Source: Branchiostoma floridae
Lineage: Eukaryota > Chordata > Leptocardii > Amphioxiformes > Branchiostomatidae
Direction of reading: 5' to 3'
DNA length: 64,000 nucleotides
NCBI RefSeq assembly: GCF_000003815.2
Contig: NC_049996.1
Location: 10,221,545 to 10,285,544 of the forward strand
This document shows, piece by piece, positions 19,298-38,936 of this stretch (positions are counted from its first letter, which is position 1; each line of letters begins with the position of its first letter). Made by a program: the position numbers and the translations under genes. A model generated the notes under the pieces. It did not search any database and was not told the origin of the DNA. It saw nothing but the letters and a program-made list of their open reading frames with translations.

Positions 19298-20772
19298 TTA
19301 TTCGTTATTCAATCCCTCTGCAAAAGCGTTGTACAAGCAGTTTGTAGAGTCTAATGTTGGTTCCGCATATGCATACTGGTTGGATGGGTCAGTTTGGGTT
19401 AGGTTAGATTCAACGTAGTGTTCTGTGTTATTCGAGACGGCAACAGTTTCATTATCGCCATAGAGTTCTCGTTTCAATCCCTCCGCAGAAGTGTTGAAGT
19501 TTGTGGAGTCTACTGCTGTTGGTTCCGCACATGTGGACTGGCTAGATTTCGTAGGTTTGATGTGGTTAGATTCGACGCTAAGCTCTGCGTTACTTGAGAC
19601 AGACACAGTTTCATGGTGCAACACTTCTGCTGAGGCACTAAGGTTTGTGGAGTTGAATATTGGTGGTGAAATATGGTCTTCATTCGAGACAACCGAAGGT
19701 TCATTGTTCAAGTCCTGTGCAGATGTTCCGTCGCACTGGTGCGTCGAGTTTTGTATCGGTACCGTAGGCGTGCTCTGATTTGCAACTGGAGATCCATGGT
19801 TCGAACCTTCTACGACATGGTATGGATTGATTTCTGTTGGTGGTGCAATTTGGTGCAAGTCGATGGAACGACGGTCTACATTCATGTCGGCGTCTTCCTG
19901 ACGATTGCAGCCCAGGTTTTTCCTCATCAGGAGACGTACTAGACATACAATAAAAGTTATAGTCAGATATGTTTCAATCAGGAAGATGGCAATGTAAAGA
20001 ATGGTATATTTTTTTCCTTTAAATTTGTCTTTCCTCGTATCCGTAGATTTAGGAGATGAATAAGCATTGGTCAGTGTAGTACTTGGTGGCATCCTTGCCG
20101 AGCTGTTGTTCTCGTAGGATTTTGTTGTGTATACTTTTTTCCATGGTTCGGTCTGTATGTTTGTGTTTCCCAAACCCGAACCGTTGGTGATGTAAATGCC
20201 ATATTTTACGCTCTGCACTTCGGTTGGGGCTTGTTGGGTCGATCCACAGTCCGTCAGATGTGTGGACACATCTGACAAAAGGCGACGGCGCAGTTGACTT
20301 GGGCTTTTACAGTCAAAGCGACACGATGGGATCAANNNNNNNNNNNNNNNNNNNNNNNNNNNNNNNNNNNNNNNNNNNNNNNNNNNNNNNNNNNNNNNNN
20401 NNNNNNNNNNNNNNNNNNNNNNNNNNNNNNNNNNNNNNNNNNNNNNNNNNNNNNNNNNNNNNNNNNNNNNNNNNNNNNNNNNNNNNNNNNNNNNNNNNNN
20501 NNNNNNNNNNNNNNNNNNNNNNNNNNNNNNNNNNNNNNNNNNNNNNNNNNNNNNNNNNNNNNNNNNNNNNNNNNNNNNNNNNNNNNNNNNNNNNNNNNNN
20601 NNNNNNNNNNNNNNNNNNNNNNNNNNNNNNNNNNNNNNNNNNNNNNNNNNNNNNNNNNNNNNNNNNNNNNNNNNNNNNNNNNNNNNNNNNNNNNNNNNNN
20701 NNNNNNNNNNNNNNNNNNNNNNNNNNNNNNNNNNNNNNNNNNNNNNNNNNNNNNNNNTTGTCTTACTTTCAT
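19298..20772 (-). CDS. LRR1: long-tail LRR membrane receptor, interrupted by a gap
   Basis: The 5' end is at ATG 20770-20772 (MKVRQ, after upstream AKTS, as in the paralogues). The 422-bp gap then hides most of the LRR domain. The 3' part resumes at residues LIPSCRFDCKSPSQL, followed by a stalk, a membrane segment (around ILYIAIFLIETYLTITF) and a cytoplasmic tail of about 200 residues. By LRR3 about 600 bp should lie between the two parts, so the gap is too short or a real deletion exists, and reading frames cannot be joined across it. The juxtamembrane signature CNRQEDAD..VDRRSI.LHQIAPP is shared by all loci. The tail holds one full ~85-residue unit and a shortened second. The closest relative is LRR3. 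Expected role: surface recognition receptor, by architecture only. AATAAA lies two bases after the stop. Confidence 0.8.
20336..20757. other. Assembly gap (422 N) inside LRR1
   Basis: A run of 422 N. It removes the region coding for most of the signal peptide, the LRRs and part of the C-terminal cap of LRR1. Confidence 0.99.
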
Positions 20773-20859
20773 GCTTGTTTTCGCCATACACATACACATA
20801 CAGTTATAAAATATGTAAGATTAGAAACGCCTTGTCAGACCATGGTAGACAACAGCAAA

Positions 20860-21345
20860 TGATTTTCAATGTCCCTGCTGATCGCACTGAACAAAAAAGT
20901 GTTATGAAACCTTGGATGTGGATGTCTTCTATTGGTACCGCAGTCACGGGTGTCAGAATACATGCATATCATTTGTGTGAATATGACGTGGCATTCATTC
21001 ATATGCAACAAGAACATGTTATGAAACCTTGGATTTGGATGTCTTCTATTGGAACCAAAGTCACAGGCGTCAGAATACATCATATTGTCTGTGGTCATAA
21101 CAACGTGGCATTCATCCATTTGCAACAGAACCACACGCGAGCTTGACATGTGCGTCGGCTAGACTGTTGTTCACAACATTCCACTGTCAGGGAACGGATT
21201 GGTTTATTGATTATAGTCCGTGAAAGTATCTATAGCTGCTATATACATATTCCAATATACATGTTTCGACTGAAACCTTACCACTAGCATTGCCATTGCA
21301 AATTTTCAATTGATTTCTTTTTGCTTCTTTTGTAATCTGTATTAT
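20860..21345 (-). promoter_or_regulatory. Conserved upstream module of LRR1 (two 117-bp units plus GATTGGTT block)
   Basis: The units start with GTTATGAAACCTTGGAT at 20901 and 21018, exactly 117 bp apart, and end near 21132. They share TCAGAATACAT, TGACGTGGCATTCAT (AACGTGGCATTCAT in the second) and TGCAACA. The block GGATTGGTTTATTGATTATAG then follows from 21196, continuing to about 21345. The module starts about 130 bp upstream of the ATG. Position and recurrence suggest a promoter or enhancer; no binding factor is proved. TGACGTGG resembles a CRE/ATF-type core. Both strands happen to be open through the two units because 117 is divisible by three. Confidence 0.55.
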
Positions 21346-21419
21346 ACATCATGTCATGTCAAATGTTCCATCCATGCAAGACGTACAAAAAAGATTTTAA
21401 GTGTATTTCTAGTCATGAT

Positions 21420-21988
21420 TGAGGAGGAAAACCTTAAATGCAAATTAGATGAAACTTGATGTTTTGTTCGTGAACGGAGAGGTGATAACGCGCCAAGACA
21501 AACGGGCTAGCCGGCTTTGTCTATCAACCTGGTGTTGTACATGGTTTTGTGTATTTCTGGTATTTTTTTCCATCTGTTTTTCATAACCGTCCACGTTGTG
21601 CTGATTGTCACGACGTGATGATGCATGTTTTAAAAAGTAACCAGGTGTACATTTTAGATAAGCACTACGCCGTGTATTGTCTTATATTTTTAAATAAATC
21701 TTGCTGGTAGTTGCACTCAGGAACTCAGTAAGTCCTACGGAGACACTGTGAGACTAAGATGGCACATCAAAAATGATACCGACTGGGTAATGAAGATGTT
21801 GCTTGCGAATCTGGAACCAAGTTCGCGATTCCGAATGCCTGTTGGGCTATGAAGCATTTTGGAACACAATTTACTTCATTGTATCATCCAAAACGGTTAG
21901 ATTTAAATGTTTCACACACAACCCTGCAAATGAGTCACTTTACCACTGGCAAAGTAATCTGCAGCTAGTTACCTGTGGTTTGAACCGC
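21420..21988 (-). other. Spacer between LRR1 module and LRR2; 3' part is an eroded tail-coding region
   Basis: Blocks shared with 23930-24200, 27260-27930 and 29830-30390 fill this spacer. From about 21786 to the LRR2 stop it aligns with the tail-coding part of LRR7 (37665-37830): a GACTGGRTRATGAAGA block followed by TTGCTTSCRAATC, and a CGGTTAGATT block. In LRR7 these bases encode cytoplasmic residues. Here they lie past the stop and are interrupted by further stops, so the segment is a relic of a longer tail. Confidence 0.6.
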
Positions 21989-23163
21989 CTAGCCCGCAGA
22001 AGTGGTGCTGTGATATGAAAGGCCCGCTGTTGGTGGTACAATCTGATGAAGGCGAATGGAATGATGATCTACACCATTGCCGGCGACTTCCTGGCGATTT
22101 CGACAAGGACCACGTTTAATCATGCACCGAACAAGGCGGGAAATAAACATCAAAGTTAGGACGCTTCCATCGAGAATAATTACCTTGTAGATAACTGTAA
22201 CTGGAAGTTGTTGGCCAGCTTTTGTCGTTGTGTCCATGGATGGAGTTGGTAACTTAGAAGCGCTGGTAACTGTACTTTTCTTTGACATCCTTGATGGGTT
22301 CTCGGTGGATTCTGTTATGTTTACTTTCTTCAATGGGTTGGTCTGTGTGGCATTACTTCCCGAACCGAGAAGAGCGCCATGTTCTACGCTCTGCAGTTTG
22401 GTCTTGGTTTGGTGGGTAGGTCTACAGTCCGGCAGTTGGCTGGACACAGTGGACAATTGATGCCAAAACAGTTGACTTGGACTGTTGCAGTTGAAACGTC
22501 CACCTTTACTGATATGAAGGAAACAGACTGAACATGAAGAACAACAGGCCTGCCGATCTCTCCCCTTACAGGCCTGTAAACACGCCAACTAATCAATCAG
22601 CCAGGAAAGCTCACAGTCACAGTAAAATGAATACTGTTGAGCACTACTGTTACCTGTGGCCATCATATTGCGTATGAGAGNNNNNNNNNNNNNNNNNNNN
22701 NNNNNNNNNNNNNNNNNNNNNNNNNNNNNNNNNNNNNNNNNNNNNNNNNNNNNNNNNNNNNNNNNNNNNNNNNNNNNNNNTTTCGGGAGATGTCCATGAC
22801 GATGCCGAGATTTACGTACTTAAGTCTGTTTCCTTGTAGTTGAAGACTGAACAAAGCTGGTAATGTCTGCAGAGACATCCAAGACACACTCTCAATAGAA
22901 TTATAGCCCAGGTCCAGAGAGGACAGTTGCGGTAGTGACTGCAAATACGTAACGTTTCTAATCTTATTGAAAGAGACTTCGAGTCGTGCAGCGTTGGATG
23001 GTATATCATCGGGAACCATCATGAGATTTAGCCTGAAACACTCAACTGATACAGTAGAGAAGAGCGCACTAAACTCCTCGACTTTACATCCATATGGCAG
23101 ACAAAAACAGCCTGTCCACAGGAGTCCAAAGTTAAAGAGCAAAAAACTTGCACTTACTTTCAT
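21989..23163 (-). pseudogene. LRR2: short-tail LRR receptor pseudogene
   Basis: The start MKVSASFLLFNFGLL is intact and the first ~120 codons match LRR4. Then three lesions are visible by comparison with LRR4. One base is missing near 22794 (TCCATGAC for TCCAATGAC on the plus strand), which ends the GIVIGHLP frame. One base is missing near 22630 in the NPFHCDC cap. A TAG replaces the Lys codon of LIDKLACL at 22589-22591. A 100-N gap hides part of the LRRs between the first two lesions. Downstream of the TAG the frame is open again for about 200 codons, with cap, stalk, membrane segment (VTVIYKVIILDGSVLTLMF) and short tail ending in YHSTTSAG. Three independent lesions make a sequencing explanation unlikely, so it is called a pseudogene. 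Confidence 0.85.
22681..22780. other. Assembly gap (100 N) inside LRR2
   Basis: Exactly 100 N, a common placeholder for a gap of unknown size. In LRR4 the corresponding interval is about 110 bp. Confidence 0.99.
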
Positions 23164-23245
23164 GCTTGTTTTGTATCGCATGATTCCCAACTTCGTTGCC
23201 TCTACGGTCCGCAGCGTTTGCTAACAAAGCGTACAAACTGATAAC

Positions 23246-23254
23246 ATTTATATA
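23246..23254 (-). promoter_or_regulatory. TATA-like box upstream of LRR2
   Basis: In gene sense the sequence reads TATATAAAT, about 83 bp upstream of the LRR2 ATG. The aligned sites of LRR3 and LRR4 read CCTATGTAAAT and CCTATGTAGAT, so the TATA form is private to the pseudogene copy. It may be chance. Confidence 0.25.
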
Positions 23255-23344
23255 TGTCACATTTCCGCACAATAAACTCTCCATACACATAGAGTTATAA
23301 AATAGGTAAGATTAGAAAAGCCTTGCGCTAAGTCAGACCGGAAA

Positions 23345-23860
23345 GACAACGCTTCGCTGGGTAAAACAGCAAATGAATTTCAATGTCCCTGCTGATCACA
23401 CTGAAAAAGAAAGTGTTATGAAACCTTGGATGTGGATGTCTTCTATTGGTACCGCAGTCACGGGTGTCAGAATACATGCATATCATTTGTGGGAATATGA
23501 CGTGGAATTCATCCATATGCAACAAGAACATGTTATGAAACCTTGGATTTGGATGTCTTATGTTGGAACCAAAGTCACAGGCGTCAGAATACATGCATAT
23601 TACCTGCGGTCATAACAACGTGGCATTCATCCATTTGCAACAGAACCACACGCGAGCTTGACATGTGCGTCGGCTAGACTGTTGTTCACAACATCTCACT
23701 GTCAGGGAACGGATTGGTTTCTTGATTATAGTCCGTGAAAGTATCTCTAGCTGCTATATACATATTTCAATGTACATGTTTCGACTGAAACCTTACCACT
23801 AGCATTGCCATTGCAAATTTTCAATTGATTTCTTTTTGCTTCTTTTGTAATCTGTATTAT
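23345..23860 (-). promoter_or_regulatory. Conserved upstream module of LRR2
   Basis: Units start at 23415 and 23532 (period 117) and end near 23650. The GATTGGTTTCTTGATTATAG block begins at 23712. The module starts about 180 bp from the LRR2 ATG. The left edge GGGTAAAACAGCAAATGA also recurs at every other copy and, in part, before LRR6. That this copy stays well preserved next to a dead gene suggests recent gene death or continued homogenisation. Confidence 0.55.
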
Positions 23861-23929
23861 AGATCATGTCAAATTTTCCATCCATGCAAGGCGTACTAAA
23901 AAAATTAAGTGTATTTCTAGTCTTGATTG

Positions 23930-25030
23930 AGGAGGAAAACCTTAAATGCGAATGAGATGAAACTTGATGTTTAGTTAGTGAACGGAGAGGCGAGAACGCA
24001 CCAAGACAAGCGGGCTATCCGGCTTAGTCTATCAACCTGGTGTTGTACATGGTTTTGTGTATTTCTGGCATATTTTTCCATCTTTTTGTCATAATCGCCC
24101 ACGTTGTGCTGATTTTCACGACGTGATAATGCATGTTTTGAAAAGTAACCAGGTGTACATTTTAGATAAACACTACGCCGTGTATTGTCTTCTCTATTGT
24201 CTAATTATTTCAATTGTGATATTTACTTTCAACTGATAACCAGAAGGTCAAAGTCCAGTCATTAATTTTGACAGAAAATAATCACATCATATGTGCAAGT
24301 ATCTTTCTTATTCACCACTACATATCAACGATATACACAAAATCTGCCAATATTCGATTAACATTATTTTCATTAGTGCATCTGATATAAACCTGTAAGT
24401 TTTGCTATGATGCATGGGCAAAATTCCCTAATTACACTTTGTGCAATCTAAAGATCTATAAAACTTTGCTAATTTCATTTCCGTATGTGAATACATATGC
24501 ATGTCATAATAAACAGTAATCATACCGTCTGTCCTATGTACAGCACTTTTTCTTCCCACCTTCTCTTTCATTCATTCATTCATTCATTCATTCATTCATT
24601 CATTCTTTATCTTTGTTCATGTCTCTAAACCAATGACTTGTGCTTGGCCCAACATAGTTATGATAGATATCAATTACTGAAAGAAACAAACCTTAACATC
24701 ATCTTAATCTTGAATACAGGAAATAGCCAAAGATATAACATCAAATAAGCATCAATAACAGCAAACCAACAACAATTTACAAGAGCTATACCTTATATGC
24801 TGTAATATAGATATAAAGTAAGAATTGGTTCAATATAAACCAGAGTACACTATAAATCTAGAAATGAACCATTGTAAGTAAATAATATATACTATCAACT
24901 AAAGAGCTTAAGTTAAGACGTATACAAACTGAATGATGAAGTTGTATTTTGGGACCATCTGCTTCATCTGATTTACATGTTCATTTTCTTTATCTGCTTC
25001 ATCTGATTTACATGTTCATTTTCTTTATTA
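23930..25030 (-). other. Spacer LRR2-LRR3: array flank blocks, 3' flank of LRR3
   Basis: No gene. 23930-24200 repeats the block at 21440-21690. From 24215 on it matches the LRR1 3' flank (18510-19297). An imperfect 38-bp duplication (CTTCATCTGATTTACATGTT) sits at 24958-25024, just past the LRR3 stop. AATAAA follows the stop as in LRR1. Confidence 0.75.
24566..24605. repeat. (TTCA)n microsatellite
   Basis: About nine uninterrupted TTCA units. The same region at 18885-18915 has only loose TTCTTTC repeats, so the array expanded after the LRR1/LRR3 duplication. Confidence 0.95.
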
Positions 25031-26485
25031 TTATTCGTTATTCAATCCCTCTACAGAAGCGTTGTACATGTAGTTTGTGGAGTCTAATGTTGGTTCCGCA
25101 CATGCATACTGGTTGGATGGGTCAGTTTGGGTAAGGTTAGTGCACACGTAGTGCTCTGTGTTATTCGAGAAGGTAACGGTTTCATCATACAAGACTCCCG
25201 TAGAGTGGTTTGCGGAGTTTTCTGGTTGTGGCATAAGGTGTTCACCCGAGACAGTCTCATTATCATCATGGTGCTCTTGATTCAATCCCTCCGCAGAAGA
25301 TTTTCCGCCGCACTGGTGCACGGAGTTATGTATCGGTACCGTAGGCGTGCTCTGACTTGCAACTGGTGGTCCATGGTTCGAACCTCCCACTACATGGCAT
25401 GGATTGGTTTCTGCTGGTGGTGCAATTCGATGTAAGTGAATGGAACGATGATCTACGTTCGCGTCGGCATCTTCCTGGCGATTGCAGCCCAGGTTTTTCC
25501 TCATCATGAGACGTACAAGACATACAATAAAAGTTATGATCAGGCATATTTCAATCAGGAAAATGGTTTTGTAAAGAATGGAATATTTTTTCCCTTTGTC
25601 TTTCCTCGTATCCGCAGATTTAGCAGATGAATAAGCATTGGTCAGTGTAGTACTTGCCCAGCTGTGTTCTCGTAGGATTCTGTTGGATATACTTTTTTCC
25701 ATGGTTGGGTCTGTATGTTGGTGTACCTAAACCCGAACCGTTGGTGATGTAAGTGCACTTTTTATGCTCTGCACTCCTGTTCTGGCTTGTTGGGTCGATC
25801 CACAGTCCGTCAGTTGGGTGGATACTTCTGACAAAAGGCGACGATGTAGTTGACTTGGACTTTTACAGTCAAAGCGTCCCGTTGGGATCAAATGAACAAA
25901 ACAGGCTGAACACGAGGAACAACAGGCCTTTCGATCTCTCCCCTTACAGGCATGTAAACACGTCATCTTATCAATCAGCCAGGAAAGCTCACAGTCACAG
26001 TGAAATGGGTTATGGTTGATCACTACTGTTTTTATATGTGGCCATCCTAGTGCGTATTGAGAGAATGTTGCCAGTTTGTTCATTCCTAGATTGACAATTT
26101 TCAGTTTCGGGAGATGCTCAATGACGATGCCGAGATTTACGTACGTCAGTTTGTTTTCTTGTAGTTGAAGACGGTACAAAGCTGGCAATGTCTGCAGAGA
26201 CATCCAGGACACACTCTCAATGGAATTATAGCTCAGGTCCAGAGAGGACAGTTGAGGCAGTGACGGCAAGTACGTAACGTTTCTAATCTCATTGTAAGAG
26301 ACTTTCAGTCGTGCAGCGTTGGGCGGTATATCTTCGGGCACCGTCATGAGATTAAGCATGTTGCACCGTATTGTTACCTCACACAACGTGGTAAACTCCT
26401 CGACTTCACATCCATTCGGCAGACAAAAACAGCCTGTCCACAGGAGTCCCAAGTTAAAGAGCAAAGAACTTGCACTTACTTTCAT
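25031..26485 (-). pseudogene. LRR3: long-tail LRR receptor, frame broken before the membrane segment
   Basis: ATG at 26483-26485 (MKVSASSLLFNLG). The frame is open through signal peptide, LRRs, the NPFHCDC cap and the CCSSCSACF cluster, to a TAG at 25727-25729 shortly after QSIKSALTSP. Against LRR1, single bases are missing near 25757, near 25720 and near 25665; a 12-bp deletion also lies in the last area. The three single losses add up to one codon, so the stalk, membrane segment (TIFLIEICLIITFIVCLV) and tail (one ~85-residue unit, ending EGLNNE) are again in the original frame. As written, the gene would make a soluble LRR ectodomain of about 250 residues. It may be a pseudogene, a secreted form, or a draft-sequence artefact. 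The remaining coding parts are clean, so any break is young. Confidence 0.75.
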
Positions 26486-26689
26486 GCTTGTTTTGCATCG
26501 CATGATTCCTAAGTCCGTTGCCTCTACGATCCGCAGCGTTTGTGAAAAAAGCGTACAAACTGATGAACATTTACATAGGTCACATTTCCACACAATAAAC
26601 TCGCTATACACATAGAGATAAAATAGGTAAGATTAGAACAGCGTATCTCCTTGTGCTAAGTGAGACCAGAAAGACAACGCTTCACTGGG

Positions 26690-27182
26690 TAAAACAGCAA
26701 ATGAAGTTCAATGTCCCTGCTGATCACACTGAACAAGAAAGTGTTATGAAACCTTGGATGTGGATGTCTTCTATTGGTACCGCAGTCACGGGTGTCAGAA
26801 TACATGCATATCATTTGTGGGAATATGACGTGGCATTCATCCATATGCAACAAGAAAATGCTATGAATCCTTGAATTTGGATGTCTTCTATTGGAGCCAA
26901 AGTCACAGGCGTCAGAATACATCATATTGTCTGTGGTCATAACAACGTGGCATTCATCCATTTGCAACAGAACCACACGCGGGCTTGACATGTGCGTCGG
27001 CTAGACTGTTGTTCACAATATCTCACTGTCATGGAACGGATTGGTTTCTTGATTATAGTCCGTGAAAGTATCTATAGCTGCTATATACATATTTCAATAT
27101 GCATGTTTCGAAACCTTGCAACTAGCATTTCCATTGCAAATTTTCAATTGATTTCTTTTTGCTTCTTTTGTAATCTGTATTA
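26690..27182 (-). promoter_or_regulatory. Conserved upstream module of LRR3
   Basis: Units start at 26743 and 26860 (the second reads GCTATGAATCCTTGAATTTGG) and end near 26974. The GATTGGTTTCTTGATTATAG block starts at 27039. The substitutions in the second unit close the plus-strand frame that is open in the LRR1, LRR2 and LRR4 copies. This argues against a conserved divergent peptide. Confidence 0.55.
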
Positions 27183-27259
27183 TGTATCATGTCATGTCAA
27201 ATGTTCCATCCATGCAAGACGTACAAAAAAGAATTTAAGTGTATTTCTAGTCATGATTG

Positions 27260-27929: not shown

Positions 27930-29054
27930 CTAGCCCACAGTAGAAGTGCTGTGATATAAAAGGCCCGCTCTTGGTGGTACAATCTGATGAAGGCGAATGG
28001 AATGATGATCTACACCATTGCCGGCGACTTCCTGGCGATTTCGGCAAGGATCACGTTTAATCAAGTACCGAACAAGGCGAGAAATAAACATCAAAATTAG
28101 GATGCTTCCATCGAGAATAATGACCTTGTAAATAACTGTAACTGGAAGTTGTTGCCCAGCTTTTGTCGTTGCGTTCATTGATTCAGTAGCTGATTTAGAA
28201 TCGCTGTTAACTGTAGTGCTTGATGACATCCTCGGTGACTTCTTGTAGCGTTCTGCTGTGTTTACTTTCTTCCATGGTTCGGTCTGTGTGCTGTTACTTC
28301 CCGAACCATTGATGAGAAAAGTGCCCTGTTCTACGCTCTGAAGTTTGGTCTTGGCTTGGTGGGTCTGTCCACAGTTCTTCAGATGGGTGGACACTGTGGA
28401 CAAATGATGCCGGTACAGTTGACTTGGACTGTTGCAGTTGAAACGTCCACCTGAACTTATATGAAGGAAACAGGCTGAACATGAAGAGCAACAAGCCTGC
28501 CGATCTCTCCCCTTACAGGCCTGTAAACACGCCAACTTGTCAATCAGCCAGGAAAGCTCACAGTCACAGTGAAATGGGTTACTGTTGAGCACTACTGTTA
28601 CCTGTGGCCATCCCAGTGAGTATTGAGAGAACTTTATCAGTTTGTTCATACCTAGATTTACTAATTTTAGTTTCGGAAGATGTCCAATGACGATGCCGAG
28701 ATTTACGTACTTAAGTCTGTTTCCTTGTAGTTGAAGACTGAATAAAGCTGGTAATGTCTGCAGAGACATCCAAGACACACTTTCAATGGAATTGTAGCTC
28801 AGGTCCAGAGAGAACAGTTTAGGCAGTGACTGCAAATACGTAACGTTTCTAATCTTATTGAAAGAGACTTCGAGTCGTGCAGCGTTGGATGGTATATCAT
28901 CGGGAACCATCATGAGATTTAGCCTGAAACACTCAACTGATACAGTAGAGAAGAGCGCACTAAACTCCTTGACTTCACATCCATACGGCAGACAAAAACA
29001 GCCTGTCCACAGGAGTCCCAAGTTAAAGAGCAAAAAACTTGCACTTACTTTCAT
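27930..29054 (-). CDS. LRR4: short-tail LRR membrane receptor, intact
   Basis: 374 residues in one exon. The chosen start is ATG 29052-29054 (MKVSASFLLFNLG), because this Met begins the signal peptide (1-22) in all copies; the open frame extends 28 codons further up. The N-terminal cap is at 26-52, four LRRs lie about 60-158 (e.g. LDLSYNSIESVSW, LQLQGNRLKYVNLG), and the C-terminal cap starts at NPFHCDCELSWL (159-170) with a Cys cluster ACCSSCSACF (187-196). The stalk is rich in Ser/Thr. The membrane segment is about 304-327 and contains Lys310 and Asp315. A tail of about 45 residues carries the CRNRQEVAG..VDHHSI.LHQIVPP signature and ends YHSTSTVG. Its nearest relative is the dead LRR2. Expected location: plasma membrane, ectodomain outside. 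Ligand unknown. Confidence 0.9.
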   Translation of the reverse strand: MKVSASFLLFNLGLLWTGCFCLPYGCEVKEFSALFSTVSVECFRLNLMMVPDDIPSNAARLEVSFNKIRNVTYLQSLPKLFSLDLSYNSIESVSWMSLQTLPALFSLQLQGNRLKYVNLGIVIGHLPKLKLVNLGMNKLIKFSQYSLGWPQVTVVLNSNPFHCDCELSWLIDKLACLQACKGRDRQACCSSCSACFLHISSGGRFNCNSPSQLYRHHLSTVSTHLKNCGQTHQAKTKLQSVEQGTFLINGSGSNSTQTEPWKKVNTAERYKKSPRMSSSTTVNSDSKSATESMNATTKAGQQLPVTVIYKVIILDGSILILMFISRLVRYLIKRDPCRNRQEVAGNGVDHHSIRLHQIVPPRAGLLYHSTSTVG

Positions 29055-29249
29055 GCTTGTTTTGTATCGCATGATTCCCAAGTGCGTTGCCTCTACGGTC
29101 CTCAGCGTTTGTGAACAAAGCGTACAAACTGATAACATCTACATAGGTCACATTTCCGCACAATAAACTCGCCATACACATAAAGATGAAATAGGTAAGA
29201 TTAGAACAGCGTATCTCCTTGTGCTAAGTCAGACCAGAAAGACAACGCT

Positions 29250-29756
29250 TCACTGGGTAGAACAGCAAATGGACTTCCTTGTCCCTGCTGATCGCATTGA
29301 ACAAGAAGGCGTTATGAAACCTTGGATGTGGATGTCTTCTATTGGTACCGCAGTCACGGGTGTCAGAATACATGCATATCGTTTGTGGGAATATGACGTG
29401 GAATTCATTCATATGCAACAAGAACATGTTATGAAACCTTGGATTTGGATGTCTTATGTTGGAACCAAAGTCACAGGCGTCAGAATACATGCATATTGTC
29501 TGCGGTCATAACAACGTGGCATTCATCCATTTGCAACAGAACCACACGCGGGCTTGACATGTGCGTCGGCTAGACTGTTGTTCACAACATTTCACTGTCA
29601 GGGAACGGATTGGTTTCTTAATTATAGTCCGTGAAAGTATCTCTAGCTGCTATATACATATTTCAATGTACATGTTTCGACTGAAACCTTGCCACTAGCA
29701 TTTCCATTGCAAATTTTCAATTGATTTCTTTTTGCTTCTTTTGTAATCTGTATTAT
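29250..29756 (-). promoter_or_regulatory. Conserved upstream module of LRR4
   Basis: Units start at 29311 and 29428 (period 117) and end near 29542. The GATTGGTTTCTTAATTATAG block starts at 29607. The module begins about 200 bp from the ATG, and the closest match is to the LRR2 copy. Confidence 0.55.
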
Positions 29757-29829
29757 GTATCATGTCATGTCAAATGTTCAATCCATGCAAGACGTACAAA
29801 AACGAATTTAAGTGTATTTCTAGTCATGA

Positions 29830-30390
29830 TTGAGGAGGAAAACCTTAAATGCAAATGAGATGAAACTTGATGTTTTGTACGTAAACGGAGAGGCGAGGAC
29901 GCCAAGATAAGCGGGCTAGCCGGCTTTGTCTATCAACCTGGTGTTGTACATGATTTTGTGTATTTCTGGTATTTTTCCCCCATCTTTTTTCATAACCGTT
30001 CACGTTATGCTGATTTTCACGACGTGATGATGCATGTTTTAAAAAGTAACCAGGTGTACATTTTAGATAAACACTACGCCGTGTATTGTCTTATATTTTT
30101 AAATAAATCTTGCCAGTAGTTGCACTCAGGAACTCAGTGAGTCCTACAGAGACACTTTGAGACTAATATGGCACATCAAACGTGATACCGACTGGGTAAT
30201 GAAGATGTTGCTTGCGAATCTAGAACCAAGTTCGCGATTCCGAATGCCTGTTGGGCTATGTAGCATTTTGGAACACAATTTACTTCATTGTATCATCCAA
30301 AACGGTTAGATTTAAATGTTTCACACACTACCCTGCAAATGAGCCACTGTACCACTGGTAAAGTAATCTGAAACCTGTGGTTTGAACCGC
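29830..30390 (-). other. Spacer LRR4-LRR5 with eroded tail relic
   Basis: It matches 21440-21988 closely. Past the LRR5 stop, AAATCTAACCG and then GCAACATCTTCATTACCCAG (gene sense) align with GAATCTAACCG and GCAATGTCTTCATCATCCAG of LRR7, where they are coding. No gene here. Confidence 0.65.
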
Positions 30391-31506
30391 CTAGCCTGTA
30401 AAAGTGCTGTGATATGGAAGGCCCGCTGTTGGTGGTACAATCTGATGAAGGGGAATGGAATGATGATCTACACCATTGCCGGCGACTTCCTGGCAATTTC
30501 GGCAAGGATCACGTTTAATCATGTACCGAACAAGGCGAGAAATAAACATCAAAGTTAGGACGCTTCCATCGAGAATAATGACCTTGTAAATAACTGTAAC
30601 TGGAAGTTGTTGTCCAGCTTTTGTCGTTGAGTCCATGGATTGAGTTGGTGACTTAGAAGCGCTGGTAACTGTAGTGCTTGTTGACATCCTTGATGGGTTT
30701 TCGGCGAATTCTGTTATGTTTACTTTCTTCAATGGTTGGGTCTGTATGGTGTTACTTCCCGAACCGAGATAAGGGCCATGTTCTACGCTCTGCAGTGTGG
30801 TCTTGATTTGGTAGGTAGGTCTACAGTCCGGCAGTTGGGTGGACACAGTGGACAATTGATGCCAAAACAGTTGACTCGGACTGTTGCAGTTGAAACGTCC
30901 ACCTGAACTGATATGAAGGAAACAGGCTGAACATGATGAGCAACAGGCCTGCTTGTCTCTCCCCTTACAGGCCTGTAAACGCGTCATCTTGCCAATCAGC
31001 CAGGAGAGGTCACAGTCACAGTGAAATGGGTTATTGTTGATCACTACTGTTGTTACCTGTGGCCATCCCAGTTCGTATTGAGAGAACGTTGCCAGTTTGT
31101 TCATACTTAGATGTACGAATTTTAGCTTCAGGAGATGACCTATCACGATGTTGAGATTTACGTACGTCAGTTTGTTTCTTTGTAGTTGAAGACTGGTCAA
31201 AGCTGGCAATGTCCGCAGAGACATCCAGGACACATTTTCAATGACATTATAGCTCAAGTCTAGATGGGACAGATGCGGCAGTGACGGGAAATAAGTGACG
31301 GTTGTAATTTTATTGTAAGCGGCATGCAGCCGTTCAGCATTGACCGGTATGTCATCGGGCACCGCTACGAGACCCAGTCTGTTGCAGTTTGTCGCCACCG
31401 TACCAAAGTACTTTAATTTCTCAACCTCACATTCTTCCGGCGAACAAAAACATTCTGTCCAGAGAAACCCCAAGGTAAAGAGTAAATACACTATAGTAAC
31501 TCTCAT
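30391..31506 (-). CDS. LRR5: short-tail LRR membrane receptor, intact
   Basis: 371 residues from ATG 31504-31506 (MRVTIVYLLFTLGFLW); a second in-frame start lies nine codons up. It has a signal peptide to about residue 22, an N-terminal cap, LRRs with LDLSYNVIENVSW and LQLQRNKLTYVNLN, the cap NPFHCDCDLSWL, and the cluster ACCSSCSACF. The membrane segment again holds Lys and Asp (VTVIYKVIILDGSVLTLMF). The tail is about 41 residues and ends YHSTFTG. The signature has one change (CRNCQE for CRNRQE). The N-terminal half is the most diverged of the short-tail group (e.g. CSPEECEVEKLKYFGTVATN), while the part from the stalk on is nearly that of LRR2. This mosaic could come from gene conversion. Confidence 0.9.
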   Translation of the reverse strand: MRVTIVYLLFTLGFLWTECFCSPEECEVEKLKYFGTVATNCNRLGLVAVPDDIPVNAERLHAAYNKITTVTYFPSLPHLSHLDLSYNVIENVSWMSLRTLPALTSLQLQRNKLTYVNLNIVIGHLLKLKFVHLSMNKLATFSQYELGWPQVTTVVINNNPFHCDCDLSWLIGKMTRLQACKGRDKQACCSSCSACFLHISSGGRFNCNSPSQLFWHQLSTVSTQLPDCRPTYQIKTTLQSVEHGPYLGSGSNTIQTQPLKKVNITEFAENPSRMSTSTTVTSASKSPTQSMDSTTKAGQQLPVTVIYKVIILDGSVLTLMFISRLVRYMIKRDPCRNCQEVAGNGVDHHSIPLHQIVPPTAGLPYHSTFTG

Positions 31507-31699
31507 GTTTGTGTGTTTGGAGTTCAAGAACACTCAAGTTCGGAGGGTCACACCTGCAAGCGAATCCTAGAAACTGAGAAAAATCAATTTGGGCTCAAAT
31601 TTACTCACGGTGAATTTACTTTCAATATGACGTTATTGTAATTTTAGCATAAAGAGAGCACACCACCTTCAGGTTTTTTTATTTAAGTGCTCTATGGCG

Positions 31700-32212: not shown

Positions 32213-32440
32213 ATTTGCGTGAGTTAGTTTGCGTCATTGTCAGGGGCGGATAGATTTGGTGTGGGTATGGGCTTTGTTCATGATACCCTGTACAAGAGAA
32301 CAGCCCATATCAGCATGGTTACAGGGTGCGAACTCTAGAGGTCTTCTGGGTGGTACTAGTACCTGAGTTTAATGATGATGAATGCTAACCCACTGTGAAT
32401 GTCCTTAGTTTGGTTCCTCATTTCGACTCTACAATATCGT

Positions 32441-33080
32441 TATTTTTTCCTGAAGAGCACTTTTATTCTGACCATTTTGGTTGTATAAAGTTAGTTGGGC
32501 GGTGAATATCTCCTAGTATGAATCCAAGCCAACGGTTATGCGGTCCTGTCGCCTGAATTCCCAGATAGTGTGTTATATGTGCGCTTGAGGTAGGTTTGTT
32601 TTATGCGCGGTTGAAGAACATGGTTCCTCATTTCGTTATGCTGAGAAAATTCGTGTTTATTGTACAGCAGCATTTGTTAAAATTGGGGGCGATAAATGAC
32701 TTCAATGACATGTTTTCATTAAAACCTACTTGACGACTCAAGCTGTCAAGATAAGCTATCATTATAACCATTTCAACCAAACGTTTGATACTCGACTTCG
32801 GTCCACAAAAAGATATGCATATGTAGAAAAATAAAGAGGCAAAATGTTATTTTCTTCTTTGCTCTTTTAGAAATTGTCTGACGCTTAAATCTCCAGACCA
32901 ATGTGTCTTGCAGTGAGAACAAACATGTGGTTTGTAGATTGGTTGTGTGATTACATAACGTGATGGTATGACAGAACGTCCACTGACATTTGATTGCTCC
33001 GAAAACGGAAATTGAAAACGCAGAACCTGCTTCAAGGCACAGACACAGACGAAACTCAGATGCCCCCCCCCCATCCACCG
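32441..33080 (-). repeat. Array flank block, copy A (possible flank of a lost LRR gene)
   Basis: Key landmarks, shared with 33590-33970 and with 17181-17930, are GAAATTGTCTGACGC, CTCCAGACCAATGTGT, CAGTGAGAACAAACATGTGG, GATTGGTTGTGTGATTACAT and AACGTGATGGTATG. The last two correspond to the GATTGGTT block that lies 450-600 bp upstream of the LRR genes. Confidence 0.6.
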
Positions 33081-33589
33081 ACTAAAAATGCCTCTAAATC
33101 AACGTTTTTGTTTGTAAATGTCAGTTTTTGTTAACCTTTTTGCGGGGAACATTACAGAAAGCGTATTATAGGTGGTTTTCAGTGTATCTGACAGAAGGGC
33201 TTTAATATATTAGCGGTAGATGATTTTTAAGATGGCGGTTGTAGCTCGAACCTGCTTGCTACATTTCTAATCCACGCGATTTTTATTATCCTCATTATTG
33301 TTCGTAATTCAAACCTTGTGCAACAGTTGTAAATTTTGGTCATATGATAAAAAACTAAACTTCACATATTGTATTGTCCTTATGCATCAGGGAAAACTCA
33401 TAAGAGATGAAGATGCACTTTAGAACTCGATGAGTACTATGGTGACAATATGTAGTTCGAAGTACGTCTTGATCACAGCGAACCCATGTTTGTTTTCTTT
33501 AGTTGTTGTAGAGGCCGGACGGTGCAGTTAGTGCCAGCGACTCTGGACCTGTGTAGAGATCGCGATTCAAAACTTCTTCAGAGCGATAA

Positions 33590-33970
33590 TTCGCTTTGCA
33601 AAATTGAATGACATTACTTTATCCAAATCTATTTGACGACACAAGTTGTCAATATAAAATATCATTACGACCATTCCCGTGTAACATCTGACACTGTTGC
33701 CCCCCCCCCCCACACACACACACTGAATATGCAATAAGGCAAGGGCAAAATGTACTTTTCTTCCACTTCTTCTAGAAACTGTCTCTGCCGCTTCAATCTC
33801 CGGACCAATTTGTTTTGCAGTGAGAACAAACATGTAGTTTGAACATTGGTTGTGTGATTACATAACGTGAGGGTATGGCAGAACGTCCACTGACATTTCA
33901 ATGCTATCAAAATTGAAGTCAAAACGCAGAATCGGCCTCAAGGTACAGACACAGACAAAACCAAGATGCC
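33590..33970 (-). repeat. Array flank block, copy B
   Basis: It shares with copy A an offset of about 900 bp and long matches (CAGTGAGAACAAACATGTAG, GTGTGATTACATAACGTGA, CAGAACGTCCACTGACATTT, AGACACAGAC). It is less diverged from copy A than from the 17-kb copy. Confidence 0.65.
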
Positions 33971-35020
33971 CCCTCCCCCGTCCACACCACCAGCCAAATT
34001 GCGTTTTTTTTTTCGGTAAGAACCCAATCATTTTCTCTCATAAAGGATATGTTCTGATCATCAAAAAAGACAAATCGCTGTCTTTTGCAGGGACTGCAAA
34101 GTCTGTTTATTCAATGTTGATATTTACACTCAACTAATACTCAAAAGATCACAATGCCAGTTGTGATAGTCTGATAGGCCAGAACGAATCACATGAAATA
34201 TTCATATATTTTATTTTACAATCCACTACAGATCATATACACAAAAACTGCCAATATTCTGCTATTAAATCACTACTCTCGAGATTGATCTTTCTATGTA
34301 TGTCTAAAATAATCTTGGATTTTTTCTTCATTTTAAACAAGTTGTTCCTATTTCGAAGTGCGACTTCAACAAAATGACTAAAAATACTTACTTTGTTTGC
34401 TAATTTTCTTTGCTTATGCCTATATGCCATAATCAATCGACCATAATTGTCAATGATATTTATACTCTCTCTCTTTGAAAAACTCTACTAAGAAAAGGAT
34501 CTATAATCTCTATACCTCTATAACCCGATGTTGTTTATGCAGTTGTTAATGAGTGGTTTCTTTCCGTAAAAGTTTGTACAGATTACGTAAGGACAGATTC
34601 ACACACATGGTACTTCTACTCCTCTAAATGCCTCTTTCAATATGTATATAATCGATATATGGTCTCTAGAAATTGAATTTGCCAAGTAGCAAAACCATAA
34701 AAACAATTTCTAAATGTCATTGAGGCTTCTAAATAAATATTTTGTGCTTGCTTCTTAATCAAACTGAAAGACCTAATGTCAAACTAGCAGCAACATCAAA
34801 TAATCAATAATCTAAGGGCTTTATATTACTAATATAACGTAAAATAAATCATGCCATACAAATATGAGAAGACAATTACAATAGAAAAAGAACATTATAT
34901 GCAATACCAGACAGCCAAACGAGAAATTACCTTAAAACATACGTCCTAAAAGATGTAGAAGTGCATGTAATAGCCTGTCACATCTTGATTCCATGATGTG
35001 TATAACCCTTGTCTGTGTTC

Positions 35021-36724
35021 TTAATTGAAACCTTCTGTAGACTTGTTGTACATGTAGTTGGCAATGCTTTCTGTTGGTACCGTTAAAGTATACAGGCTGC
35101 AATCCGCAGTTTCTTTGCAGCTGAATTCCGCGCAGAGCTCTGTGTTATTCGAGAGGACAACAGTTTCATGATACAACACTCCTGCAGAGTGATTTGCAGG
35201 GTTTACTGGTGATGGGCTAACCTGGTTTTCATCAGAGATACCTTCATTACTGCCACGATGTTCTTGACTCAAACCCTCTGCAGAAGTGCTGTGCATGTAG
35301 TTAGCGGAGTCTACTACTTGATCCGCACATGAGGTCTGGTTAGATGTCTCAGTTTTGGTCAGGCTGGAGTCCACGCAGAGCTCTGTGTCATTTGAGACGA
35401 CATTAGTGTCGTCATTTAGTCCTCCAGCCGAGGCACTATGGTGCGCTGAGTTTATCATTGCTGTTAGTATCTGGTCTTCACTCCGGACAACCAACTGTTC
35501 ATTATCATCTAAACCTTGCGTAGAGATACCGGAGCACTGGTCCTTGGCGTTAAGTATCGGTAACGTAGGCGAGATCTGATCTGCAACTGGATGTCCATGG
35601 TTCGAACCTCGTACAACAGCTCCATTGTTTAAGTCGTTTTCTATTGGCAGCACAATCTGGTTTAGGTGAATAGAATGATGATTTACGTCCATGTTGGCAT
35701 CTTCCTGGCGATTGCAGCACAGATTTGTCTTTATCATTAATCGTAAGAGGCAAACAATAAAAGTTACAGTCAGACATGTTTCAATTAAAAAGATAGAGAT
35801 GTGAAGACTTGTATATTCTTTACTTTTTTCTTTCTTCGTGTCCATAGGTGTAGTGGAAAATGTATAAGAGCTGGTCTGGTTGGCGCTTGTTTGTACCTTT
35901 GTCGAGCTGTTGTTCTTGTAGATTTCTGTTGTATTAAAATCTTTCCATGGCTGTGTCTGTGTGTTGTTGTTTCCCGAATCATTGATGAGAAAAGTGTCAC
36001 TTTCTTTGCTCTTCACTTTGGTGTTGCCTTGGTGGGCCCGTCCACAGTTCTTCAGCTGGGTGGACACAGTGGACAAATGATGCCGATACAGGTGACTGGG
36101 ACTGTTGCAGTTAAAACGTCCGGCTGGACTGATATGAAGGAAACAAGCTGAACATAAAGAACAACAGGACTGCCGATCTCTCCCCTTACAGGCCTGTAAA
36201 CACGCCAACTTATCAATCAGCCAGGAAAGCTCACAGTCACAGTGAAATGGGTTATTGTTGATCACTACTGTTACCTGTGGCCATCCCAGTGAGTACTGAG
36301 AAAATGTTGCCAGTTTGTTATGACTTAGATTGACAAGTATAAGCTTCGGGAGATGCTCAATCACGGTGTCGAGATTTACGTACTTCAGTCTGTTTTCTTG
36401 CAAAAGAAGAGAGATCAATGCTGGCAAAGTCTGCAGAGACATCCAGGACACACTCTCAATGGAATTGTGACTCAGATCTAGATTGTACAGTTGCGGCAGT
36501 GACGGTAGGTATGTGATGTTTCTTATGTCATTGTACGCGACTCGGAGTCGTCCAGCGTTAGACGGTATATTATCGGGCACCGTCATGAGATTCAGCCCGC
36601 GACACTCAATTGACACCGTAGAGAGGTACTCTGACCTCTTGACTTCACATCCATTTGGCAAACAAAAACAGCCCGTCCATAGAAATCCCAAGATAAGGAG
36701 TAAATACTTTGCACTTACTTTCAT
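35021..36724 (-). CDS. LRR6: long-tail LRR membrane receptor, intact
   Basis: 567 residues in one exon from ATG 36722-36724 (MKVSAKYLLLILGFLW). Signal peptide 1-22, N-terminal cap 26-54, about four LRRs at 60-155 (LDLSHNSIESVSW, VNLSHNKLATFSQ), cap NPFHCDCELSWL 158-169, Cys cluster 187-194, and an Asn/Ser/Thr-rich stalk 230-305. The membrane segment is about 307-331 (ISIFLIETCLTVTFIVCLL, with a Glu in the middle). The tail of about 236 residues begins with CCNRQEDANMDVNHHSI. It consists largely of two ~85-residue units (about 393-478 and 476-566), each with SN.TELC, NYM(H/Y) and a closing EG(L/F). Tyrosines occur in VLYHETV, CSLYTLT and NYMYN; none is a canonical ITIM. This is the best reference copy for the long-tail group. 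Confidence 0.92.
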   Translation of the reverse strand: MKVSAKYLLLILGFLWTGCFCLPNGCEVKRSEYLSTVSIECRGLNLMTVPDNIPSNAGRLRVAYNDIRNITYLPSLPQLYNLDLSHNSIESVSWMSLQTLPALISLLLQENRLKYVNLDTVIEHLPKLILVNLSHNKLATFSQYSLGWPQVTVVINNNPFHCDCELSWLIDKLACLQACKGRDRQSCCSLCSACFLHISPAGRFNCNSPSHLYRHHLSTVSTQLKNCGRAHQGNTKVKSKESDTFLINDSGNNNTQTQPWKDFNTTEIYKNNSSTKVQTSANQTSSYTFSTTPMDTKKEKSKEYTSLHISIFLIETCLTVTFIVCLLRLMIKTNLCCNRQEDANMDVNHHSIHLNQIVLPIENDLNNGAVVRGSNHGHPVADQISPTLPILNAKDQCSGISTQGLDDNEQLVVRSEDQILTAMINSAHHSASAGGLNDDTNVVSNDTELCVDSSLTKTETSNQTSCADQVVDSANYMHSTSAEGLSQEHRGSNEGISDENQVSPSPVNPANHSAGVLYHETVVLSNNTELCAEFSCKETADCSLYTLTVPTESIANYMYNKSTEGFN

Positions 36725-36889
36725 GTTTACTTTGTTCACCTGAATAAGAAGCTGGTGCGATTTCAAAACACCACCTCTATGGTCCTCAGCGTTTGCCAAC
36801 AAAGGCTACAAACTGACAAGTTTTGACATTGGCTTGCATCTACCCACATTAATTCGCTTAAAAGAATGTTATTGCAGGATCCGGTGGTC

Positions 36890-37330
36890 CATAGTGGGAA
36901 GAGATATTAAACGTAACGATTCGCCAGGTAAAACAGCAAGTACACTTCCCTGCCCCTGTTGATTGTGGAACGAAAAGCTGTTGTGAGACCTTGAATTTGA
37001 CTGTCTTTCATTGGAGAGCAAAGGTGTGAGAGTCAGAATACATGCATATCATTTGTTGTTATGACGACGTGTTATGCATATGCAACAAAGCCGTCTATAG
37101 CTATAGGCTTGACATTTTCGTCAGCTAGCTTATGTTACACAATAGTTGTAAAGACAGACGGATTTGTTGAGTACAGTCCGTGAAAGTATGACAGGGCGTC
37201 TGTTTCGTAACTCATTGGGTGTGAAAAGTATATTTCATCTTTTGACTCGACTGAAAGTTTATTCCATTTCTTATTCTTTCTTGATCGCTTTTTGCTTCTT
37301 TCAAAAAAGACCAACGAATTTTGCTGTATT
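36890..37330 (-). promoter_or_regulatory. Decayed upstream module of LRR6 (single unit)
   Basis: One unit at about 36979-37095 keeps TCAGAATACATGCATATC, TTATGACGACGTG and ATGCATATGCAACAAAG. The left block CGCCAGGTAAAACAGCAA is near 36922. The block with ACAGTCCGTGAAAGTATGAC follows from 37161. Between these islands similarity to the other copies is low, so the islands are candidates for constrained sites. Confidence 0.5.
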
Positions 37331-37616
37331 GCTTTGCACTCCGTCTGGAAAGGTGGTGGTTTCGTGCTTGAATGGAGAAAGCATTTTACCTTTTTTTTAG
37401 TCCTGATGAAGGTAAAAGGGCTTAGTTGTGATGGCTGATATATACCTTAATGAATTCCTTTGAAAAACATTTTTGATGAAGAGAGGTTTACATGCAGGGA
37501 ATACACAGAAATTTTCTCTGATGTCATATTCGATCGGTCTGTAAACTAAGATTATTATTAACATTTCAGAAATAGAGGGGAACGCGCCTCGTCCGGGAGG
37601 CTATAGCCGTGCGATT

Positions 37617-38936
37617 TTAGTCTGTCAACCTGGCGGGGTCTGCAGAGTTAACTGCTGGGGATGTATACAGACTGGATGATGAAGACATTGCTTCCAAATG
37701 CCCGGAAGTGTGATGATACACCACACAGTCGGTTAGATTCCCATGGTACAGACTCCCACCAAATGTGGTATGATCTGCAACTGGGTTTCTGTGGCTTGAA
37801 TTAGCAATGGAGTATGAAGGGTGTGCTGGTGGTGGTAAAATCTGACGTGCGTTGATGGAATGGTCATCTAAACCAATGCCGGCATCTTCGCGGCGATTGC
37901 AGCAAAAATCACGTTTAATCACATACCAAAGAAGGCGTGTGACCAACATCAAAGTTAAACAGCTTCCAATGAGAATGATGACGATATAAAGAATCATAAC
38001 TGGAAGTTGATGGCCAGCTTTTCTCGTCGTGTGTAGGGATTCAGTGGATGGTTTAGAAGGGTTTGTCGTTGTAGCAATTGTTGATATCCTTGCCGAGCTC
38101 TTGTTGTACTGGGGTTCCTTTGTCTTTGTTTCCATCCATAATTCTGTCTGCGTGTTGTTGTTTCCGGACTCTTTCATAAGGCAAGTGTCATTTTCTGCAC
38201 TCTGCAGTTCGGTCTTGGCTAGGTGGGTCTGCCCACAGTCAGCCAGTTGGGTAGATACATCTGACAAATGGCGCTGATACAGTTGACTCGGGCTGTTGCA
38301 GTGAAAACGTCCGTCTGATTTCGTCATGTAAAGAAAACAGGCTGAACATGAAGAACAACAGGCCTGCCGATCTCTACCCTTACAAGCCTGTAAACACGCC
38401 AACTTGTCAATCAGCCAGGAAAGCTCACAGTCACAGTGAAATGGGTTATTGTTGATCACTACTTTTGTTACCTGTGGCCACCCCAGTCCGTATTGAGAAA
38501 ATGTTGCCAGTTTGTTCATGCTTAGATTTACGAATGACAGTTTCGGGAGATGTCCAATGACCATATCGAGCCTGACGTGGCTCAGTCTGTTTCCTTGTAG
38601 TTGAAGACTGGTCAAAACTGGCAATGTCCGCAGAGACATCCAGGACACACTTTCAATGGAATTATAGCTCAGGTCTAGCGAGGACAGTTGTGGCAGTGAC
38701 GGCAAATAGGTAACGTTTCTAATGTTATTGTAAGCGACATGCAGTCGTTCAGTACTGACCGGAATGTCATCGGGCACCGTGACGAGGCCCCAACTATTAC
38801 AGTGAATTGTTGTATGTACAACATTGGCGGAAAATAGGGACGGTTTCTTCTCGATTGTACATTGCGTTGGCAGACCAGCACAGCCTAACCACCAAGATCC
38901 AAAGGCAATCAGTATTATTATACCACCTACTGTCAT
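37617..38936 (-). CDS. LRR7: LRR membrane receptor with intermediate tail, intact
   Basis: 439 residues, one exon, ATG at 38934-38936 (MTVGGIIILIAFGSWWLG); no better start exists upstream. Signal peptide 1-22, N-terminal cap 26-58, four LRRs 65-163, cap NPFHCDCELSWL 164-175, Cys cluster 191-200, stalk to 305, and an uncharged membrane segment 311-333 (LPVMILYIVIILIGSCLTLM). The tail of about 100 residues starts CCNRREDAGIGLDDHSIN and ends with a Ser run and DPARLTD. Four tyrosines lie in the distal tail (SLYHGNL, CVVYHHT, SSLYTSP, PSYSIAN). Its tail DNA aligns with non-coding DNA past the stops of LRR2, LRR4 and LRR5, so LRR7 may keep the ancestral tail of that branch. It is the most diverged member and lacks the 117-bp unit upstream. 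Confidence 0.92.
   Translation of the reverse strand: MTVGGIIILIAFGSWWLGCAGLPTQCTIEKKPSLFSANVVHTTIHCNSWGLVTVPDDIPVSTERLHVAYNNIRNVTYLPSLPQLSSLDLSYNSIESVSWMSLRTLPVLTSLQLQGNRLSHVRLDMVIGHLPKLSFVNLSMNKLATFSQYGLGWPQVTKVVINNNPFHCDCELSWLIDKLACLQACKGRDRQACCSSCSACFLYMTKSDGRFHCNSPSQLYQRHLSDVSTQLADCGQTHLAKTELQSAENDTCLMKESGNNNTQTELWMETKTKEPQYNKSSARISTIATTTNPSKPSTESLHTTRKAGHQLPVMILYIVIILIGSCLTLMLVTRLLWYVIKRDFCCNRREDAGIGLDDHSINARQILPPPAHPSYSIANSSHRNPVADHTTFGGSLYHGNLTDCVVYHHTSGHLEAMSSSSSLYTSPAVNSADPARLTD

Follow-up and report, generated by a model that had tools for sequence, protein, structure and literature searches.

What kind of receptor system is encoded by a tandem array in which genes of one ectodomain plan end in a long tail at some positions and in a short tail at others? 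This question is raised by the 64-kb stretch of Branchiostoma floridae contig 18 analyzed here (G000:C18:10221545-10285544; hereafter the window), which carries seven homologues of leucine-rich repeat (LRR) receptors, LRR1 to LRR7, in tandem on the minus strand between positions 19298 and 38936 (Table 1). Paired activating and inhibitory receptors are known mainly from the immunoglobulin (Ig) and C-type lectin families of vertebrates, and another form exists in Botryllus. A preliminary description of the window had proposed a paired-receptor-like system, and its account of the locus was upheld in part. The seven genes share a signal peptide, an LRRNT-LRR-LRRCT ectodomain, a stalk, a transmembrane (TM) segment and a tail, the plan of type I LRR receptors, and tail lengths past the predicted TM segment confirm the order long, short, long, short, short, long, intermediate. 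A tblastn search with four of the seven found no eighth locus in the window. The phrase "near-identical ectodomains", used there of vertebrate arrays, does not fit this one: whole-protein identity to LRR4 is 72% for LRR5, 65% for LRR6 and 62% for LRR7, and only some segments are close.

The distribution of these close segments indicates that heads and tails evolve apart within the array. Between the long-tailed LRR3 and the short-tailed LRR4, sliding identity is about 89-98% in the 5' flank and 80-92% across the greater part of the ectodomain, before falling through 71, 65, 61, 53 and 44% from the end of the LRRCT across the stalk, TM segment and tail. The number of synonymous substitutions per synonymous site (dS) rises from 0.27 in the LRR part through 0.49-0.73, already, in the LRRCT part to 0.84 in the TM/juxtamembrane part; this measure, which is free of protein constraint, agrees with the identity profile. 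For LRR4 and LRR5, both short-tailed, the gradient is reversed (0.64 in the LRR part, 0.00 in the TM/juxtamembrane part), and comparison of LRR6 with the three short-tailed genes gives 0.16-0.30 in the LRRCT and 0.96-1.25 in the TM part. We compared proportions of synonymous differences by Fisher tests on rounded counts, with sites taken as independent, no correction for the number of tests, and regions (LRR part, LRRCT) picked after viewing the sliding windows. The LRR part differed from the TM part in LRR3-LRR4 (0.23 vs. 0.50, p = 0.006), LRR3-LRR2 (p = 0.0004) and LRR3-LRR5 (p = 0.04), and the LRRCT differed from the TM part in LRR6-LRR2 (0.14 vs. 0.61, p = 5e-5), LRR6-LRR4 (p = 0.01) and LRR6-LRR5 (p = 0.005). 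Among same-type pairs, the contrast was reversed in LRR4-LRR5 (0.43 vs. 0.00, p = 2.5e-8) and LRR2-LRR5 (p = 6e-5) and undetected in LRR2-LRR4 (p = 1) and LRR3-LRR6 (p = 0.16); the intermediate LRR7 likewise showed none with LRR4 (p = 0.42) or LRR6 (p = 0.11). In the ectodomain tree, LRR4 groups with LRR3 (Shimodaira-Hasegawa-like approximate likelihood ratio support, 86) and both group with LRR6 (95), rather than LRR4 with LRR5. An approximately unbiased (AU) test disfavored an LRR4+LRR5 ectodomain clade (p-AU = 0.022), as fits an exchange of heads. Tail type, which had been expected to form clades, thus does so in the TM and tail part only and is no clean clade marker.

Is this pattern confined to one array? 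We searched the genome assembly (513,431,437 bases in 431 contigs) with the LRR4 protein and scored 103 of 1317 candidates. Seven of the scored matches are the window's own and 96 lie outside it; none of the 103 falls within 400 kb on either side of the array. From the loci fetched, 61 of 74 open reading frames (ORFs) match the family profile, and 54 of these entered an ectodomain tree of a quick kind, which comes with a warning about long branches meeting. The seven left out are L034, L043, L051 and L054 (broken or lacking a TM segment), L057, L058 and one of L066. L057 and L058 are identical 279-aa LRR ORFs on contig 8 (1.92 Mb, plus strand; 3.20 Mb, minus strand), either a recent duplicate or an assembly duplication. 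Sorted by tail, the tree contains 27 long, eight type X, six type S1 and five other short ORFs, three truncated by a stop or frameshift, three intermediate and two short ones from the window. In each of the eight X genes the juxtamembrane region is followed by GGTTTGTTT, a donor-like site. At three X loci (L030, L053 and L067) a downstream long-tail exon starts with HG.P.VNHI, and no second tail exon was found at the remaining X genes in the stretches fetched; L032, L040 and L041 were accordingly dropped as proven long tails. Two dense clusters of distant relatives, G000:C3 5.77-6.08 Mb and C12 11.40-11.43 Mb, with three genes read in each, hold frames of 259-788 aa. Downstream of a 674-aa LRR receptor at L052, positions 4172-5001 are repetitive with several open frames.

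The S1 genes show that the split between head and tail recurs in this genome, in other clusters and on a short module that differs from the window's. All six share an AGT-containing TM segment followed by a stop 13-15 residues later (only five in L038), and they lie on contigs 18 and 11 across differing ectodomain clades. The S1 module is a second short tail, carried on ectodomains of two clades that otherwise bear another TM module. L044 (S1) and L040 (X) have an ectodomain dS of 0.11/0.10 and differ in stalk and TM segment, with 6 of 32 TM residues alike (p = 6e-9). Similar contrasts separate L044 from L032 (p = 0.0006), and L033 (p = 0.0002) and L035 (p = 0.0001) from L030, an X gene with a long tail; L035-L067 agrees with the latter (ectodomain dS 0.32, stalk dS 0.73). 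No contrast appeared in same-type pairs (p = 0.10, 0.11 and 0.55), and L044, L033 and L035 are alike in stalk and TM segment though the L044 ectodomain is distant. An AU test rejected a single ectodomain clade of the six S1 genes (p-AU = 4e-7), a group named from its tail before the tree was made; the corresponding test for L033, L035 and L044 (p = 0.0002) concerned a group named after it. For four of the six S1 genes, a relative with a longer tail lies no more than 9 kb away on the same strand: L033 beside L030, L035 beside L067, L038 beside L053, and L039 in a triple of 364, 476 and 486 aa. Near L044 there is only L043, which is broken and on the opposite strand, and L048 has no neighbor among the scored matches. 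In L067 itself, the beginning of the LRR region has been lost. At positions 1-768 of that locus (minus strand), a 256-aa frame running off the locus end lies beside this LRR gene with its replaced 5' part, possibly a mobile element insertion.

If tails are modules of their own, what might they do? A pattern search for the immunoreceptor tyrosine-based inhibitory motif (ITIM) and activation motif (ITAM) found neither in the seven window tails, in line with the preliminary description. We extended the search to 29 long tails, LRR7 included, with 200 shuffles for the expectation. The strict ITIM was absent (3.6 expected), the loose ITIM was seen once (8.4 expected), and no ITAM was found. A different feature was enriched: past the first ten residues, I, L, M or V precedes 121 of 204 tyrosines in these tails (37 expected, p = 7e-39), or 106 of 181 when distinct contexts are counted (p = 1e-33), p-values that overstate independence because the tail sequences are related. 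Contexts recur within branches, xIYSIEED and HxYENPTG in one, and LYHEPV, LYTCxEP and MYNTS in the window's own. The only known tail motifs in excess were YxN (26 vs. 19 expected) and PxQx[TS] (7 vs. 3.3 expected), each level reached by 14 of 200 shuffles, and, in LRR1, LRR3 and LRR6, PxxP (4 vs. 1.7 expected; 13 of 200). Within the membrane, the long-tailed LRR1, LRR3 and LRR6 carry E, which occurs in 13 of 53 listed TM cores (LRR6 is counted in both), and the short-tailed LRR2, LRR4 and LRR5 carry K and D. K is also found in LRR3, and no charged residue lies in the TM core of LRR7 or of the six S1 genes, so a basic TM residue was dropped as a mark of the short type.

Only LRR models exceeded the Pfam cut-offs in the seven window proteins or parts and four relatives, two parts remaining unmatched above cut-off, and the same scan found no cytoplasmic TIR domain such as Toll-like receptors have. 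Among PDB entries, LRR4 is matched best by general LRR proteins (TIR domain-containing protein, LRFN, LINGO, LRIG1, LRRC32 and TLR4/VLR hybrids). An AlphaFold2 model of LRR4 built on 35 family sequences (mean predicted local distance difference test score, pLDDT, 65.7) has a confidently predicted LRR domain, with ten-residue blocks at pLDDT 84-98 across residues 21-140, a less certain LRRCT, a predicted long TM helix at 305-334 and a stalk and tail modeled as disordered. Among LRR3 to LRR7 and seven near relatives, LRR strand positions assigned by pattern as solvent-exposed vary more than do the remaining positions of the LRR region (entropy 1.30 at 23 positions vs. 0.77 at 121, p = 0.002), as expected of a binding face.

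Part of the alternating order is of local origin. The blocks upstream of LRR1 to LRR4 are alike regardless of tail, with 77-99% identity over 39 pairwise 150-base windows and at least 88% in 34 of them, and each includes a pair of 117-bp units common to long- and short-tailed genes. Self-comparison showed that LRR1 and LRR3 have tail and 3' flank in common, and that the N-terminal half of LRR2 resembles LRR4 and its C-terminal half LRR5, with the switch at the LRR2 assembly gap. Given this recent local duplication of the LRR1-4 5' block, the LRR1/LRR3 tail and the LRR2/LRR4 N-terminal half, alternation is partly expected: the long-short-long-short stretch appears to be, at least in part, two copies of one long/short neighbor pair, and seven loci are not seven independent cases. 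LRR2, LRR4 and LRR5 also share the flank behind their stops, which has no blastn match to long-tail coding sequence. This ruled out the idea that they are truncated versions of the neighboring long tails, and indicates that the window's short tails are 3' ends in their own right.

Although all seven loci are present, only four (LRR4 to LRR7) are intact from ATG to stop in the assembly. LRR1 and LRR2 are interrupted by gaps. LRR2 has a one-base deletion on either side of its gap and an in-frame TAG, marks of either a pseudogene or gap-edge errors. In LRR3, the ectodomain is open within 25727-26485 and the TM segment and tail within 25031-25726, and part of the stalk is out of frame with a stop codon inside that stretch.

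Table 1. Positions in the window of the LRR receptor loci and of the paired 117-bp units upstream of LRR1 to LRR4. Tail lengths are residues past the predicted TM segment.
Feature	Position	Strand	Tail	Remarks
LRR1	19298..20803	-	long, 213 aa	ectodomain mostly assembly gap (N 20336-20757)
LRR2	21989..23163	-	short, 48 aa	N gap 22681-22780
LRR3	25031..26485	-	long, 161 aa	stop and frameshift in stalk
LRR4	27930..29054	-	short, 50 aa	intact ORF from ATG; K and D in TM
LRR5	30391..31506	-	short, 49 aa	intact ORF
LRR6	35021..36724	-	long, 240 aa	intact ORF; E in TM
LRR7	37617..38936	-	intermediate, 108 aa	intact ORF; TM core without charge
117-bp unit pair, LRR1	20900-21131			upstream of LRR1
117-bp unit pair, LRR2	23407-23646			upstream of LRR2
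117-bp unit pair, LRR3	26732-26969			upstream of LRR3
117-bp unit pair, LRR4	29300..29542	-		two units upstream of LRR4

In the array and in two other ectodomain clades, then, the 5' flank and ectodomain segments are common to genes that differ in stalk, TM segment and tail. Our findings suggest that the array belongs, as one cluster among others, to a large lancelet LRR receptor family in which heads and tails are exchangeable modules, with gene conversion or unequal crossing-over as the likely cause. Long- and short-tailed members would then use the variable concave face of the LRRs to recognize related ligands. Since some pairs have their 5' flank in common, they may also be made in the same cells, though the flank shared by LRR1 to LRR4 is only suggestive of overlapping expression. 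Phosphorylation of family-specific [I/L/M/V]Y modules may let the long tails recruit SH2 proteins, and the short tails, which lack docking sites, would most likely act as non-signaling competitors or co-receptors that tune the long-tailed receptors, and less likely as activators through an ITAM adaptor. As a single explanation, exchangeable heads and tails with tyrosine signaling by long tails and tuning by short ones is probably correct, judging from the sequences. The architectural part of the paired-receptor proposal is supported by exchanged heads, distinct tail modules and their recurrence; ITIM, ITAM and a type-specific basic TM residue form no part of it.

Several observations weigh against this explanation. 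Of the aligned tyrosines in LRR1, LRR3 and LRR6, only 4 of 7, 2 of 9 and 1 of 9 are kept, and these long tails evolve fast, with a ratio of nonsynonymous to synonymous rates (dN/dS) of 0.58-0.62, so any tyrosine code in the array is loose. With dN/dS at 0.7-1.4 over 47-48 codons, purifying selection is not evident in the window's short tail. LRR6 is close to the short-tailed genes in the LRRCT alone (LRR-part dS 0.60-0.64), and an LRR3+LRR6 ectodomain clade was not rejected by the AU test (p-AU = 0.20). Elsewhere, the L038/L053 pair is not close in the ectodomain (dS 0.61 in the LRR part, 0.94 in the LRRCT), and the S1 stop falls at about one place in only five of six genes, L038 ending about 10 residues earlier. 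In L019, L021 and L056, a nonsense or frameshift mutation has truncated a long tail whose remnants are readable past the stop, so decay alone can make short tails. The ectodomains also differ enough that ligands may differ.

Such decay is central to a competing account, in which the array reflects ordinary birth and death in a tandem family and short tails are by-products of recombination, stops and relaxed constraint with no dedicated function. The disruption of LRR2, the stop in LRR3, the three broken long-tail genes, the dN/dS of the window's short tail and an order partly readable as local duplication would all follow from it. Birth and death is nonetheless doubtful as the whole story, because LRR4 and LRR5 are intact with a common 3' flank that is no long-tail remnant, and because the S1 TM segment and very short tail are kept in six genes on two contigs and in differing ectodomain clades, five of them with nearly the same stop. 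Mosaic genes might instead be scaffolding errors, given that LRR2 joins its two halves exactly at the gap (20844-22680 matches 29256-31084 at 92%, and 22781-24191 matches 28671-30092 at 93%). We regard this as very improbable for the array, since no gap interrupts the sequence behind the LRR3/LRR4 and LRR4/LRR5 contrasts, and other places in the genome repeat the pattern.

Two further accounts accept the tails as functional and assign them other roles. True activating/inhibitory pairs resembling KIR or PIR, in which long tails inhibit through ITIM-like tyrosines and short tails activate with the help of an ITAM adaptor bound at the TM segment, would suit the array architecture, the K and D within the TM segments of LRR2, LRR4 and LRR5, and the inhibitory, tyrosine-phosphorylated LRR receptor BbLcLRR described for Branchiostoma belcheri (PMC8211107). 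They are unlikely in view of the absence of ITIM and ITAM from the window, the deficit of strict ITIMs in the 29 long tails, the K of long-tailed LRR3 and the uncharged S1 cores. Alternatively, long and short receptors could be the signaling and binding chains of one hetero-oligomer held together through charged TM positions, E in long and K/D in short members, as the distribution of these residues would allow. This is quite improbable given that LRR3 also has K, that LRR7 and S1 cores are uncharged, and that K might pair with D of the same helix. We thus retain exchangeable heads and tails with tuning by short-tailed members as the preferred explanation.

How does this arrangement compare with known systems? 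Of the features by which PMC3533184 defines paired receptors, two structural ones are present here: small gene clusters (seven loci in 20 kb, and the four S1 genes with neighbors) and ectodomain conservation between differing tails (segments at dS 0.10-0.30 across tail types). Two motif features do not fit: the long-tailed member should have an ITIM (none in the LRR1, LRR3 and LRR6 tails), and a basic TM residue should mark the short-tailed, activating one, but the K of LRR2, LRR4 and LRR5 recurs in long-tailed LRR3 and the S1 cores are uncharged. The array resembles mammalian paired receptors (KIR, PILR, SIRP; dog CEACAM1/CEACAM28) in small clusters, related ectodomains and long/short or opposed tails (PMC3533184, PMC2110893). 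It differs in having LRR rather than Ig or C-type lectin heads and in lacking ITIM, ITAM and a type-specific basic TM residue. According to PMC2110893, gene conversion between dog CEACAM1 and CEACAM28 covers the 5' flank, leader and N domain and leaves the TM segment and tail apart, the nearest documented process to the array pattern.

The nearest invertebrate-chordate parallel we found is the fester/FcoR pairs of Botryllus, receptors coded side by side with a long tyrosine-motif tail on one partner; unlike the array, they have Ig/sushi domains, an ITIM and hemITAM and an allorecognition role, and each pair consists of two different proteins rather than one head type on two tails (PMC12065747). 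In lancelets, BbLcLRR (GenBank MW390887) is a receptor with LRRNT, four LRRs, LRRCT, TM segment and a tail phosphorylated by Lck, and it inhibits signaling in human T cells (PMC8211107), which makes our reading of the long tails plausible. It has a predicted WSC domain, of which our Pfam matches contain none, and its reported motifs DDYATV, HDYSEV and HDYDDP occur in none of 56 tails, a comparison by domain and motif that leaves room for kinship. In open-licence PubMed Central we found no report of lancelet paired receptors.

LRR4 also matches the lancelet VLR-like protein Bf66946 (PDB 4xsq; E = 1.6e-9), a match surpassed by those to many other LRR proteins listed with it. Bf66946 and lamprey VLR likewise have a short LRRNT-LRR-LRRCT ectodomain, whereas the array genes carry TM segments and tails on complete germline genes. 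VLRs are assembled somatically from an incomplete germline gene; four array genes are complete ORFs in the genome assembly, a matter separate from assembly in cells.

A broader proposal can be made only tentatively, and we hold it to be possible at best: that cephalochordates evolved a genome-wide LRR paired-receptor system without recourse to Ig or C-type lectin receptors or to ITIM and ITAM. In it, modular heads would be swapped between long tails, which have a tandem tyrosine code of their own (such as IYSIEED, YENP, LYHEPV and MYNTS), and short-tailed partners of more than one origin, with response thresholds set by competition for one ligand. If true, head and tail exchange on an LRR scaffold would show that the architecture evolves repeatedly under recognition pressure, and would open the origin of paired architecture to testing in a tractable animal. 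The recurring [I/L/M/V]Y contexts offer concrete candidate SH2 sites outside the ITIM/ITAM scheme.

Two features of the window lie outside the array. Positions 3083-7076 hold 184-bp tandem repeats in two opposed arrays flanking a 923-bp assembly gap, and a C2H2 zinc finger open frame of 628 aa at 62115-63998 (minus strand) runs to the window end.

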